A program made the translations under genes and the position numbers. The notes beneath the pieces are model-generated. The model ran no database searches. It was not told the origin of the DNA and worked only from the letters and a program-made list of their open reading frames with translations. Positions 11,214 to 24,701 of a DNA stretch of 64,000 nucleotides are shown here, piece by piece (positions within the stretch are counted from its first letter, which is position 1; the number at the start of each line of letters is the position of its first letter). The DNA comes from Mycolicibacterium neworleansense (lineage in GTDB: Bacteria; Actinomycetota; Actinomycetes; Mycobacteriales; Mycobacteriaceae): the NCBI RefSeq assembly GCF_001245615.1, contig NZ_CWKH01000001.1, positions 1,674,001 to 1,738,000 of the forward strand, written 5' to 3'.

Positions 11214-12089
<876 letters not shown>

Positions 12090-12100
12090 ATCGGCAGCCA

Positions 12101-13102
12101 TTGACTGTCCCGCCCCCTTACGGCGGTTACCAGCCGGACGATCCCAGTTCCGCGCCGGGTTACCCGGCGGGATATCCGGCTGGTTATCCCCCGCCCGCCC
12201 ACACCAACGGCATGGCGGTCGCATCACTGGTGTGTGCGGTGCTGTTCGCGCCGCTGGGCATCGTGCTGGGACACCTCTCGCTCTCGCAGCTGAAACGCAG
12301 CGGTGAACAGGGCCGCGGCATCGCGATCGCGGGCCTGGTGATCGGATACGTGATGACGGCGCTGGCGATCGTGCTGGTGGTGTTGGGGCTGGTGTTCGCG
12401 TTCATCGCCGTCAAAGTCGCCGAGGACATGCCCGCGCAGGACCGCTACACCGCGTCCCCTGGGGCGGGCCAGGAACTGCCCGCATTCGCCCCGCCGAAGA
12501 ATCTCGGGGCCAACTGCCAGTACCCGGCCACCACCGAACCGGCCGCCAGGCCGGCCTCTCCGCCGCGCACCGGCACGGTGCCGACCGAACCGGCCACGGT
12601 GGAAGCCGGCATCGTCACCGATCGCGGCAGCATCGGCCTGCAGCTGGCCAACGGCAAGGCGCCGTGCACGGTGAACAACTTCGCCAGCCTGGCCGCTCAG
12701 GGGTTCTTCGACGGCACCCAATGCCATCGGCTGACCACCGGCACCCTGGCGGCACTGCAATGCGGTGATCCCTCGGGCAGTGGCACCGGCGGGCCCGGAT
12801 ACCGATTCCCCAACGAGTACCCGACCAACCAGTACCGGCTCTCGGATCCCGCGGTGGAGCGGCCGGTGCTCTATCCGCGCGGCACGGTGGCCATGGCCAA
12901 CGCCGGGCCGGGCACCAACGGCAGCCAGTTCTTCCTGGTGTACGAGGATTCCATGCTGCCGCCGACCTACACGGTGTTCGGCACCGTCGACAAGACCGGA
13001 CTGGCCACCCTCGACGCGATCGCCGCGGGTGGGGTTGCCGACGGCAGCGACGACGGCAGGCCCGCAACACCGGTGACCATCGAATCGGCGAACGTGGGCT
13101 GA
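12101..13102 (+). CDS. Second cyclophilin, fused to a DUF4190-like two-helix membrane region
   Basis: 333 residues. The N-terminus is Pro/Gly/Tyr-rich (PGYPAGYPAGYPPP), followed by two membrane helices of the DUF4190 type (LGHLSLSQLKRSG between them) at about residues 38-60 and 75-105, then a cyclophilin domain very close to the upstream ppiB: shared blocks LGANCQYPA, NGKAPCTVN, CHRLTTG, GSQFFLVYEDS. The catalytic Arg is kept. Different anchor, same domain: a tandem duplication with domain replacement. The apparent start is TTG at 12101; no closer ATG precedes the repeats. It ends 17 bp before the SecD-like gene. Confidence 0.88.
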   Translation: MTVPPPYGGYQPDDPSSAPGYPAGYPAGYPPPAHTNGMAVASLVCAVLFAPLGIVLGHLSLSQLKRSGEQGRGIAIAGLVIGYVMTALAIVLVVLGLVFAFIAVKVAEDMPAQDRYTASPGAGQELPAFAPPKNLGANCQYPATTEPAARPASPPRTGTVPTEPATVEAGIVTDRGSIGLQLANGKAPCTVNNFASLAAQGFFDGTQCHRLTTGTLAALQCGDPSGSGTGGPGYRFPNEYPTNQYRLSDPAVERPVLYPRGTVAMANAGPGTNGSQFFLVYEDSMLPPTYTVFGTVDKTGLATLDAIAAGGVADGSDDGRPATPVTIESANVG

Positions 13103-13119: not shown

Positions 13120-14232
13120 GTGTCCGATCCAATACCGTTCCAATATCCCCCACCGCAATTCCCGCCGCCCGGGCACAGCGGAACCACCGCGTTGACGCGC
13201 ATTCTCGGCGCGCTGTTCCTGGTGGTACCCGTCGGCGGCTACGCGGCAGCGGTGTTCTGGACCGGGCACATCTGGCAGAACCGGGAAGCCACCCGCATGA
13301 CGTATTCGACCGCGACCTCGAACGGCTCACCGCCGCCACCTGATGCCCTGGCGAAGACGCGCGAGGTCGTCGAGAACCGCTTGCACGGGATGGGGTTCTC
13401 CGGATCCGAGGTGGCCACCGACGGGAGCACCTTGGTGGTCACGATCCCGAGTCGCGATCCGGACGCGGTACGGGACATCACCATGCCGGGCCAACTGGCG
13501 ATCCGTCCGGTGGTCCACGCGATGCCCGCCAAACCCGGATCGTCGCCCGCACCCACGTCGACACCCGCGCCCCGTGCAACGAAACCCGATCAGGCGCAAC
13601 GGATTTCCGATGAGAAGCAACTTCGGCAGGCCACCAACCCGTCGATGCAGATCCTGGCGCTGCAGTTCCAGGCCACCCGCTGTGGCGACGATGACGTGCT
13701 CGCCGGACACGATGACCCGAACCTGCCGCTGGTCACCTGCTCCGACGACGGGGAAACGGTCTACCTGCTGGACCGGTCGGTCATGAGCGGCGCGGAGATC
13801 ACCGATGCCGACTCGGGGTACAGCGAGGACGCGGGCCGATATGTCGTCGACGTGGCGTTCACCGGCGCCGGAACCAAGACCTGGGCGGATTTCACCACGG
13901 CCAACATCGGCACCCAGACCGCGTTCACCCTCGACACCCGTGTGGTCAGCGCTCCGGAGATCCGTGAGGCCATCACCGGTGGGCGCGTCCAGATCACCGG
14001 CGACTTCACTGCCGATTCGGCGCGCGCGCTCGCCGGCGTCCTGGAATCGGGGTCGCTGCCCTTCTCGTTGTCCCCGGAGTCCTCCGAGGACGCGACGCTG
14101 CCCCCGACGATGCTCTCCAAACTGCTGCGCGGGCTGATCATCGCGGTGGGGATCGGCGTTCTGGCGATCACGATCGCCGGTGTGGTGTACCTCGCCTGGC
14201 GCAGGCCCGGCCCCGCTGTGCAGATGTACTGA
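13120..14232 (+). CDS. SecD paralogue reduced to the extracytoplasmic P1 domain between two membrane anchors
   Basis: 370 residues. After a Pro-rich start there is one helix (about 26-48), then a domain closely matching the first extracytoplasmic domain of the SecD encoded at 22863-24701: shared blocks include [56 protein letters not shown] and [11 protein letters not shown]. It ends with a single helix (LLRGLIIAVGIGVLAITIAGVVYLAW) and a short tail. The five C-terminal RND-type helices carrying SecD's proton-relay residues are absent. GTG start at 13120 after GAGGAG. I infer a passive periplasmic chaperone or decoy, not a translocase motor. Confidence 0.87.
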   Translation: MSDPIPFQYPPPQFPPPGHSGTTALTRILGALFLVVPVGGYAAAVFWTGHIWQNREATRMTYSTATSNGSPPPPDALAKTREVVENRLHGMGFSGSEVATDGSTLVVTIPSRDPDAVRDITMPGQLAIRPVVHAMPAKPGSSPAPTSTPAPRATKPDQAQRISDEKQLRQATNPSMQILALQFQATRCGDDDVLAGHDDPNLPLVTCSDDGETVYLLDRSVMSGAEITDADSGYSEDAGRYVVDVAFTGAGTKTWADFTTANIGTQTAFTLDTRVVSAPEIREAITGGRVQITGDFTADSARALAGVLESGSLPFSLSPESSEDATLPPTMLSKLLRGLIIAVGIGVLAITIAGVVYLAWRRPGPAVQMY

Positions 14233-14252: not shown

Positions 14253-15839
14253 ATGCTCACCGGTATGGATCGCGGCAGCCGGGATTCGGGGATCTCCCTG
14301 GCCGAGCTGCTGAGCGCCTTCTCGTTCGCCATGGATCTCGGTCTGGGCCAGCCGATGGAACACGTGCTGCGCTCGTGGCGGCTGGCCGCTCGCCTGGGCG
14401 AGCGTGTCGGTCTGGTGGCCGAGCAACGGGCCGATCTCTACTACACGGCGGTGTTGGCCTGGGTGGGCTGCATCTCGGATGCCCCCGAGGTAGCGGCGTG
14501 GTTCGGCGACGACATCGCGTTTCGCTCGGACAGCTACCGCGTCGATCTGGGCGGGCTGCGCGGTGCGACATTCATGCTGTCGCATGCCGGTTCAGCCGGC
14601 CCGCTACTGAGCCGGGTACGTAAGACGGCGACGCTGATCGGCACCGGTGGCCGCGATGTCGAGCAGGGGCTGATGTCGCACTGCCTGAGCACCTCGACGA
14701 TGGCCGAGCGCCTCGGTCTGGATGCCGCCGTCGGAGACGCCCTGCGCCAGTTCTTCGCACGGTGGGACGGCAAAGGGGTGCCCGCCGGTCTGGGCGGCGA
14801 GGCGATCGCCTTGCCGATCAGACTCTTTCACCTCGCCGACGTGGCCGAGGTGGTGCACCGTGACGCCGGGGTGGCCGCCGCGGTCGACGTCGCCAGGTCG
14901 CGCCGGGGCACCCAGTTCGACCCCGCCGTGGTCGACGCATTCTGTGCTGCCGCAGCCGATCTGCTGTCCGAGGGCGACGACGAGGCGGACTGCCACGATC
15001 TGGTCGCCGCCGATCCGGCGCTGCAGCGCCGGCTCACCAACGGCCAACTCGACTCGGCGCTGGAGGTGTTCGCCGATTTCACCGACCTTCGCTCACCGCA
15101 CCGCGCCGGGCATTCTCGCGCCGTGGCCGAACTCGCGGCGAAGGCCGCGAACACCGCGGGGCTGACCGAAGACGACGTGACCCTGGTGCGGCGCGCCGCA
15201 CTGCTGCACGACATCGGCCTGCACGGCGTGCCGGCCACGGTCACGGACAAGCCCGGGAAGCTCAGCGCCGCCGACCATGAACGACTGCGGCTGAGTTCGT
15301 ATTACACCGAACGGGTGCTGGCCCGCCCGGCCGCGGTGGCGCGCATCGGTGCGGTCGCGTCGCTGGCCTATGAACGGATGGACGGCTCGGGAGCGCACCG
15401 CGGCTTGTCGGGGCCGTCGATTCCCGTCACCGGCCGCATCCTCGCCGCGGCGGACTGCTACCGGGCCATGACCGAACCGCGGCCGTACCGGCCGGCCTTG
15501 TCCGCCAAGGCCGCAAGTTCGGAACTACGGGCCGAGGCACGTCGCGGACGGCTGGACGGGGCGGCCGTCGATGCCGTTCTCGAAGCCGCCGGAGGACCCC
15601 GACCCCGACGCCGCGTGGGTCCGGACGGGCTGACACCGCGGGAGATCGAGGTGCTGGGGCTGATCGCCCGCGGCGCGTCCACCAGACAGGTGGCGACCGC
15701 CCTGGGGATCAGCCCGAAGACCGCCGGCACCCACATCGAGCGCATCTACACCAAGACCGGTTCCTCGACCCGCAGCACCGCCACCCTCTACGCCGTTACG
15801 CACGGCCTGCTGGACACGGTGGCCGACGCCGAAAAGTAG
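14253..15839 (+). CDS. Double HD-GYP-like protein with LuxR-type DNA-binding domain
   Basis: 528 residues. The first half resembles an HD-GYP domain that has lost its HD core but keeps FFARWDGKGVPAGLGGE and IRLFHLADVAEVV. The second half (about 270-450) is a fuller HD-GYP: HRAGHS, ALLHDIG, then AYERMDGSG where GYP enzymes have HHE and DGxGYP. The last 65 residues are a LuxR helix-turn-helix (LTPREIEVLGLIARGAST, ISPKTAGTHIERIYTKTG). It may sense a nucleotide and regulate transcription; hydrolase activity is uncertain because metal ligands differ. Start could be ATG 14253 or 14265. Confidence 0.85.
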   Translation: MLTGMDRGSRDSGISLAELLSAFSFAMDLGLGQPMEHVLRSWRLAARLGERVGLVAEQRADLYYTAVLAWVGCISDAPEVAAWFGDDIAFRSDSYRVDLGGLRGATFMLSHAGSAGPLLSRVRKTATLIGTGGRDVEQGLMSHCLSTSTMAERLGLDAAVGDALRQFFARWDGKGVPAGLGGEAIALPIRLFHLADVAEVVHRDAGVAAAVDVARSRRGTQFDPAVVDAFCAAAADLLSEGDDEADCHDLVAADPALQRRLTNGQLDSALEVFADFTDLRSPHRAGHSRAVAELAAKAANTAGLTEDDVTLVRRAALLHDIGLHGVPATVTDKPGKLSAADHERLRLSSYYTERVLARPAAVARIGAVASLAYERMDGSGAHRGLSGPSIPVTGRILAAADCYRAMTEPRPYRPALSAKAASSELRAEARRGRLDGAAVDAVLEAAGGPRPRRRVGPDGLTPREIEVLGLIARGASTRQVATALGISPKTAGTHIERIYTKTGSSTRSTATLYAVTHGLLDTVADAEK

Positions 15840-22862: not shown

Positions 22863-24701
22863 CTATCCCCGTCCCGCGGTTGCATGAGAAGCCTCCCGGC
22901 GTTCCCGGGCGATCTGCTGGACCGCGCCGAGGCCGTTGAGGGAAGGTTTGGCCATCGTCGGGGACTTGGACGCCAGGTACACCAGCGGCCAGGTCACCAG
23001 GAACACCACCACGAGGTCGAGGATGGTGGTCAGTCCCGTGGTGAACGCGAAGCCCTTGACCTGTCCGATCGCCAGGAAGTACAGCACCGCGGCGGCCAGG
23101 AAGGTCACGGCGTTGCCGGACACGATGGTCTTGCGGGCGCGGGCCCAGCCTCGCGGAACCGCCGACCGGAACGACCGGCCCTCGCGGATCTCGTCCTTGA
23201 TGCGTTCGAAGAACACCACGAAGGAGTCCGCGGTCGTTCCGATACCAATGATCAAACCGGCGATACCGGCCAGGTCCAGCGTGTAACCGATGTACCTACC
23301 GAGCAGCACGAGAATGGCGAAAACCATTGCGCCGGAAGCAACCAGCGACAAAGCCACCAGCAGACCCAGCACTCGGTAGTACAGCAGTGAGTACAACAGC
23401 ACCGCCGCCAGGCCGACCGCGCCGGCGATCAGGCCGGCCCGCATCGAGGACAGGCCCAGGGTGGCCGAAACGGTCTCGGCCTCAGACGATTCGAACGACA
23501 GTGGCAGCGAACCGTACTTGAGCACGTTGGCCAGTTCCTTGGCCGTGTCTGAGGTGAACTGGCCGGTGATCTGGGTGTTCCCGCCCGGGATGGCCTCCCG
23601 GATCTCGGGTGCGCTGACCACCTGCGAGTCCAAGGTGAAGGCGGTCTGGGTGCCCACATTCGCCGCCGTGAAGTCGGCCCAGGTCTTGGCTCCCCCGCTC
23701 TTGAAGGTCACGTCGACGACGTACTGGCCCTGCTGCTGGTTCAGGCCGGAGGTGGCGTCGGCGATCTCCTCGCCGCTCATGATCGACTTGCTCAGCAGGT
23801 AGACCGTCTGGCCGTCCTGCGAGCAGGTGATCAGCGGCAGGTTCGGGTCGTCGTTGCCGGCCAGCACGTCTTCGTCACCGCAACGGGTCGCCTGGTACTG
23901 CAACGCCAGGATCTGGATCGACGGATTGGTGCTCTGCCGCAGTTCCTTCTCGTCGGCAATCCGCTGGGCCAGCGCGGCCTTGGCATCGCCGGGCTTGGGC
24001 GGCGCAGGTGGCGCCGGTGCGGGTGCGGGAGCCGGGGCGGGCTCACCCGGAACCGGGGCCGGGGTGGGTTCGCCCGGAGTGGGCGCCGGGTCCAGTGGGT
24101 AAGGCCGTGGCTGAGGTGCCGGCACAGGCTCGCCTGCCGGTGGCGCCACCGGTGCCTCACCGGCCGGCGGCGCAACCGGTGCCTCGCCCGGCGCCAGGCC
24201 CGGAATCGCGCCCGGGAGACCGGGCACCGCCGGTGCCGCAGGAGCACCGGGGACACCGGGAGCCGCGGGGGCGCCCGGGGCACCGGCACCCGGCTGCGCA
24301 CCCTGTTCGGCGGGCGGCTTGGCGGGCATCGCGTGCACGACGGGCCGGATGTACAGGCGGGCGGTCTGGCCCAGGTTGCGGGCCTCGCTGCCGTCGTTGC
24401 CGGGAACGGTGATCACCAGGTTGTCGCCGTCGATGACGACCTCGGAGCCCGAGACGCCGAGACCGTCGACGCGGGCACTGATGATTTGTTGGGCCTGGTT
24501 GAGTGCCTCTCTGGTCGGCGTCGAGCCGTCCGGGGTGCGCGCGGTCAGCGTCACCCGGGTACCGCCCTGCAGGTCAATGCCGAGTTTGGGCTTGGCCTGC
24601 TTGTCGCCGGTGAGGAACACCAGCAGATATACGCCGATCAGAAGGACCAGGAAAAGTGTCAGGTAGCGCGCAGGATGCACCGGCGCCGAAGACGATGCCA
24701 C
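22863..24701 (-). CDS. secD: Protein translocase subunit SecD
   Basis: 612 residues. Helix 1, then a large extracytoplasmic domain interrupted by a long Pro/Ala/Gly insert (roughly residues 135-235) typical of mycobacterial SecD, then five helices with [19 protein letters not shown] and [12 protein letters not shown]. It works with SecF and YajC on late steps of Sec export. GTG start at 24701. Its P1 domain has a close copy in the stand-alone gene at 13120-14232. Confidence 0.96.

Follow-up and report, generated by a model that had tools for sequence, protein, structure and literature searches.

What does the P1 domain of SecD do when it has a gene of its own, apart from the helices of the motor and next to two cyclophilin genes? 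The question is raised by an open frame of 370 codons in a 64,000-nucleotide stretch of the Mycolicibacterium neworleansense genome (contig NZ_CWKH01000001.1, positions 1,674,001 to 1,738,000 of the forward strand), which we call the window and in which position 1 is the first letter. A first-pass annotation, made from the letters and their open reading frames, had seen in this gene a possible post-export folding module, or else a competitor of SecDF. Relatives in NCBI and UniRef are named 'SecDF P1 head subdomain-containing protein' or 'preprotein translocase subunit SecD', the first of which gives the domain only, and among the open-licence PMC papers listed we found no description of stand-alone P1 proteins. 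The locus presents a known domain stripped of its motor, in surroundings that give a testable idea.

A SecD P1 protein with two anchors

The gene, its parts and the SecD of the window are as follows.

13120..14232, + strand: stand-alone SecD P1 protein with two anchors, 370 aa (open frame, GTG start)
13201..13257, + strand: N-terminal helix, residues 28-46, counterpart of SecD TM1 (hydropathy; SecD alignment)
13282..13536, + strand: P1 base, residues 55-139, GG motif missing, conservation relaxed (SecD alignment; column conservation)
13681..13740, + strand: Cys188-Cys207 loop (CGDDDVLAGHDDPNLPLVTC), common to mycobacterial SecD (alignment rows)
13741..14073, + strand: P1 head, residues 208-318 (PF22599, 106 bits; SecD alignment; 3aqo profile match)
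14131..14187, + strand: C-terminal helix, residues 338-356, in register with SecD TM2, with WRR behind it (hydropathy; SecD alignment)
22863..24701, - strand: true SecD, 612 aa, parent family of the stand-alone gene (TIGR01129, 462 bits; TM4 Asp at 492)

Of SecD, the P1 protein retains the P1 head with a helix on either side, as well as both cysteines; TM3-6 and the GG motif are gone. Its sole Pfam match was SecDF_P1_head (PF22599, residues 208-314, 106 bits against a cut-off of 27). In the window SecD, Pfam found SecD_SecF_C, SecD_1st and Sec_GG besides the P1 head; the P1 protein had no Pfam match to SecD_SecF_C (PF02355) or to the GG motif (PF07549), and hydropathy gave two helices only. 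It also scored below the SecD equivalog cut-off (TIGR01129, 155.2 against 244.4 bits). It is like SecD in TM1, in the base and head of P1, in the Cys loop of mycobacterial SecD and in having a helix at the place of TM2, but differs in the absence of TM3-6 and of the TM4 Asp, in the lost GG motif and in its score. The TM4 Asp of SecD, residue 492, aligns with an Asp of solved SecDF chains, and we take it to be the proton relay. When the profile of the stand-alone proteins was compared with the 229-residue P1 chain of 3aqo, the match (E 6e-22 overall) lay mainly in the head, at 3aqo residues 125-222, and the base part reached only 12 bits.

BLASTP aligned the protein with the window SecD at 63% identity over residues 155-357 (E 2e-86) and at 42% over 32-139, in agreement with the earlier claim that P1 was kept, with long blocks shared between the two proteins. 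By segment, identity was 45% in TM1 (22 aligned residues of 24-47), 41% in the P1 base (79 residues, 55-133), 79% in the Cys-loop stretch, 69% in the head (109 aligned residues) and 24% between the C-terminal anchor and SecD TM2 (29 aligned residues). By this alignment the last anchor is probably a remnant of TM2. The first-pass annotation was thus right about a single helix at each end, but its statement that all five RND helices are absent does not hold as worded: because the C-terminal anchor aligns with TM2, the missing part is TM3-TM6 and not clearly all five. The GG motif of SecD (LGIDLQGG, residues 40-47) is missing in the window protein; among the 37 rows of stand-alone proteins, 92-100% have gaps at its first four columns, and the GG pair is kept in some divergent rows (G040, G065). 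We rejected recent gene conversion from secD, because the longest identical DNA run is only 18 bp and third-position identity is 63% over 162 aligned codons.

A truncated SecD of this shape could pair with SecF or SecYEG and so lower or re-target the action of SecDF. TM1, P1 and the helix at the place of TM2 are all kept, and identity to the SecD of the same cell is high over residues 155-357, which speaks for a competitor or tuner. However, the parts near the membrane are among the least kept, since identity falls to 24% in the TM2 region and the protein lacks the GG motif, and we regard tuning of SecDF as distinctly improbable.

The ppiB locus and other homes

The neighbours of the P1 gene in the window are two cyclophilin genes and a regulator gene.

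11214..12089, + strand: PpiB1, one N-terminal helix (31-49) and a cyclophilin domain (PF00160; hydropathy)
12101..13102, + strand: PpiB2, a DUF4190 two-helix hairpin (38-56, 84-102) and a cyclophilin domain (PF13828, PF00160; hydropathy)
14253..15839, + strand: HD domain-LuxR regulator, 20 bp 3' of the P1 gene (domain search)

As had been proposed, the P1 gene adjoins two anchored prolyl isomerases, PpiB1 with one helix and PpiB2 with a hairpin, encoded by tandem cyclophilin genes, and 17 bp separate it from the cyclophilin frame 12101-13102. A promoter scan gave no site, and Rfam gave no match. The HD-LuxR gene also lies 3' of P1 in two other carriers (G546, G524; about 90% identical); it had no match in the examined stretches of the other 22 carriers with P1 at this locus. 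Here and below, the labels RelA, SecF, YajC, apt, TetR, rpsL, rpsG, fusA and tuf are presumed from inspection by eye or from M. tuberculosis synteny.

How widespread is the arrangement? The P1 gene was recognised in at least 10 of 118 genomes drawn evenly from the genus, and in at least 38 of 394 in a set that includes those 118; both counts are lower bounds. One search for relatives scored 8000 candidates, and another may leave out near kin. Among the matches listed, the gene was not recognised in 356 of the 394 genomes, which counts against the folding role proposed below. Two further candidates (G494, G654) were rejected as carriers because their matches were SecD; that of G654 (L206) is a second SecD, with an open frame of 512 aa, away from the usual one.

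The ppiB locus houses P1 in 25 of the 38 carriers, with two cyclophilin genes every time. The three-gene order of the window, which we sought in other mycobacteria as the first-pass annotation had proposed, is ppiB1-ppiB2-P1 and was found in 20 of the 38 carriers; the other five of the 25 (G106, G083, G437, G476, G458) have ppiB1-P1-ppiB2. The second cyclophilin is a shorter form in G065 and G603. Spacing was measured in 11 loci, nine from carriers and two named M. peregrinum loci outside the 38, with the nearest start codons chosen by script as gene starts. Where P1 comes last (nine loci), it starts 0-39 bp past the cyclophilin gene, except in G024, where the distance is 100 bp. In G106 and G083 it starts 4 and 7 bp after ppiB1 and overlaps ppiB2 by 4 bp. 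Two other arrangements were considered and rejected. Gaps between the cyclophilin genes of other genomes, taken at first for divergent P1 genes, hold kinase parts of kinase-cyclophilin genes when the loci are read, and the very long frames that resembled a PpiB2-P1 fusion (G401, G458) carry unrelated upstream sequence in the P1 frame.

Thirteen of the 38 copies are not beside cyclophilin genes, which also counts against joint work with cyclophilins. Ten of these lie before rpsL-rpsG, followed by fusA and tuf in stretches long enough to include them, and in nine a TetR-like gene precedes P1; two are at other places (G446, G040); and in one (G598) P1 is the ectodomain of a Ser/Thr kinase. The rpsL-rpsG site (L194, L195, L200, L203, L204, L214-L218) is a second conserved home of the two-anchor form. 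Conversely, PpiB2 of the window type occurs in 51 of the 118 genomes by hand count, with P1 at the locus in at least eight of those; G065 has P1 with the shorter second cyclophilin, and in G040 the locus holds a single PpiB gene, with P1 at another place. The second cyclophilin does not need P1, since it is much the commoner of the two. Linkage to cyclophilins is frequent, not obligate.

Origin of the gene

In a tree of 71 rows, with 12 SecDs from other genera as outgroup, 37 stand-alone rows (36 of the 38 carriers plus the record P0124, with the damaged copies of G577 and G656 left out) formed one clade (UFboot 100, SH-aLRT 99). This clade grouped with mycobacterial SecD at 100/100, while its exact place among the SecDs was weaker (86/91), and a 128-row tree concurred (SH-aLRT 99). 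As judged from these trees, the P1 gene derives from a mycobacterial-type SecD. Nine rpsL copies clustered in a single clade nested within it (100/99), and two kinase fusions branched next to them. Because the rpsL copies and the fusions nest among copies from the ppiB locus, the trees suggest that the ppiB place is ancestral, and P1 was probably born beside the cyclophilins; the inner branching order is unsure owing to several long branches.

The simplest history is that a partial copy of secD entered the ppiB locus, about 9 kb away, and that losses and a few moves followed; horizontal transfer is a possible alternative. Since secD lies so near, linkage to the cyclophilins may partly reflect birth by local duplication, which weakens linkage as an argument for shared function. 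Phage and plasmid origins were rejected. The matches of four unannotated phage records are confined to residues 208-305, at 31-39%; those of 36 plasmid records stay below 60% identity throughout, and among the ten of the 36 that were listed, both with a named gene name secD.

Conservation and selection

All 37 stand-alone rows and all 22 mycobacterial SecD rows have both Cys188 and Cys207. In a 51-row alignment Cys207 is invariant and Cys188 is kept at 90% or more, and the two may form a disulfide. We then took as reference the columns conserved in at least 95% of the 22 mycobacterial SecDs and asked how often the 37 stand-alone rows retain the SecD residue. It is the majority residue in 51 of 59 head columns (27 of them at 90% or more) and in 35 of 55 base columns (five of them at 90% or more), which makes the head the better conserved part.

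Selection was assessed in seven pairs of relatives. For P1, dN/dS was 0.08-0.26 by YN00 (five pairs with a value) and 0.18-0.48 by NG86 (seven pairs), compared to 0.02-0.09 for SecD (YN00, four pairs), 0.02-0.07 for PpiB1 (five pairs) and 0.04-0.10 for PpiB2 (six pairs). The P1 values exceed those of SecD and, in most pairs, those of the cyclophilins, a difference that speaks against a folding role shared with the cyclophilins. By these values the P1 gene is a real gene under purifying selection, with a constraint weaker than that of its neighbours in most pairs.

Could the gene be a relic under weak constraint, left close to where it arose by a partial duplication of secD and doing little? 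Its patchy occurrence (at least 38 of 394 genomes), its faster evolution than SecD and three damaged-looking copies are what a relic would show. These copies are G577, with a stop, G656, whose head by eye lacks about 25 residues, and G539, which ends before the last helix; they count against a folding role as well. However, dN/dS is below 0.5 in every pair with a value by both methods, both cysteines are retained in all rows, and the fusions to kinases described below are a separate re-use of the domain. The frame is open at full length in 35 of 38 copies, full length being judged solely from a stop-to-stop length of 352 aa or more. We therefore consider a relic very unlikely. The first-pass annotation would have given up its proposal for a gene that was decayed, or rare and never linked to cyclophilins; the gene is uncommon, has a full-length frame in most carriers, and is linked in 25.

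Kinase fusions

A form in which P1 is joined to a kinase was found in two records, G598 (L205:3045-4982, matched by P0123, which is named Mycolicibacterium komossense) and P0124. P0123 and P0124 share 63% identity in the searched P1 part, and in this form the P1 domain and the final helix make up the kinase ectodomain. The kinase domain of this form shares 64% identity with that of one kinase-cyclophilin protein from the G103 ppiB locus. Its best matches are such proteins of the ppiB locus, as the top two of 24 in G103 and the top one of ten in G041.

Receptor-like proteins of the form kinase-helix-cyclophilin lie between ppiB1 and relA in several loci (L101, L102, L108 with two, L116, L117). 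Four are confirmed by Pfam and the others were assigned by eye; L116 has one cyclophilin frame, with the kinase part in separate frames. Their host genomes have no recognised P1 gene. Related kinases in G000 and G598 carry ectodomains that by eye resemble solute-binding proteins.

These proteins bring in another explanation, in which P1 is an extracytoplasmic sensor or ligand-binding domain. It would read unfolded chains, or some other ligand in the envelope, and pass a signal to a partner while taking no part in folding. The fusion of the same P1 form to a Ser/Thr kinase, the closeness of that kinase to the kinase-cyclophilin proteins of G103 and G041, the solute-binding-like ectodomains of its relatives and the HD-LuxR gene 3' of P1 in the window, G546 and G524 would all suit a sensor. 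On the other hand, only one of the 38 carriers has the fusion, and the window protein extends only about 14 residues beyond its last helix, without an output domain. Moreover, because this type of kinase takes several ectodomains, its being shared by P1 and cyclophilin proves little, and the tie that it makes between the two domains is suggestive only. We consider a pure sensor rather improbable, but worth taking seriously.

A possible folding site at the Sec exit

Our leading reading, to which we give a little less than an even chance, is that the protein is a membrane-anchored, motor-free paralog of SecD P1 that holds emerging chains and docks the co-encoded cyclophilins at the Sec exit. The Arg residues after the last helix and the register with SecD suggest that both termini are cytoplasmic, so that P1 would face outward. 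Both cyclophilin domains can likewise be outside, given the one helix of PpiB1 and the hairpin of PpiB2 with its positively charged loop. P1 can presumably fold alone, since the structure 3aqo was solved for a 229-residue P1 chain from a SecDF. With no proton-driven strokes, it would work passively. The head would grip segments of chains as they leave SecYEG or once SecDF has let them go, and would dock PpiB1 and PpiB2, whose prolyl isomerisation and chaperoning would thereby take place at the exit site. Relocated relatives may have kept the binding function and acquired other outputs, such as that of a kinase ectodomain.

Precedents come from other bacteria. In one study (PMC7793623), the SecD P1 head is described as the substrate-binding part, and PpiD, a chaperone of a PPIase family, crosslinks to it at Asp-359. 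A second study (PMC9987972) presents a model in which the PPIase domains of E. coli SurA sit on the T. thermophilus SecDF P1 head. According to a third (PMC4794191), both PpiA and PpiB of M. tuberculosis can bind non-native proteins in vitro. The window locus resembles PpiD and SurA at the translocon exit in having a chaperone of a PPIase family beside a P1 head, but there P1 is SecD's own, whereas at this locus P1 has a protein to itself and the PPIases belong to the cyclophilins. Against a cyclophilin-assisted exit site, a curated M. tuberculosis secretion model places PpiB under Tat and T7SS, not Sec (PMC13122829).

The post-export folding module of the first-pass annotation therefore survives in part. 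It is favoured by a conserved, motor-free P1 that is linked to cyclophilins in 25 of 38 carriers, and opposed by the 13 unlinked copies and by the independence of PpiB2 from P1. A broader version, in which the P1 head is a free-standing passive binder of polypeptides, serving with cyclophilins as a folding station at the exit and on a kinase as a receptor for unfolded or newly exported proteins, with P1 and cyclophilin domains as interchangeable readers of envelope folding, seems to us unlikely.

If docking and chain holding at the exit are real, two jobs of SecDF, chain gripping and chain moving, are separated here, and the locus would encode a candidate exit-site folding complex for mycobacteria. 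A natural motor-free P1 would then also be a reagent for ligands of the P1 head and for the docking of PPIases, a question raised by the work on PpiD and SurA.

Short P1-head proteins and relatives outside the genus

In a set of 151 genomes of the family, 141 of them outside the genus, one separate stand-alone P1 outside the genus appeared among the matches listed (G250, L120). It is lipoprotein-like, belongs to another genus, lies outside the stand-alone clade in the 128-row tree and by this position represents an apparent second origin. In a set of 150 genomes of the order, short P1-head frames were found, among the matches listed, in six genomes of one genus and in G293. In the six-genome genus these open frames are 209-263 aa long, and the two that were read look like lipoproteins. 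Such short P1-head proteins (L172, L173, L174, L175, L177, L120) are about 200-290 aa long and start with a lipobox-like segment or a single helix. No cyclophilin gene was seen by eye beside the short genes in seven loci, six plus that of G250. The short Mycobacteriales proteins are thus like the window protein in having a P1 head without the motor, but differ in having one anchor, in the lack of an adjoining cyclophilin gene in these seven loci and in the place of G250 outside the clade. P1 forms of about 200 aa also occur in five mycobacteria (G003, G047, G086, G014, G055), and in G125 (L119), from another genus, a second SecD-like frame with an internal TAG lies directly beside secD.
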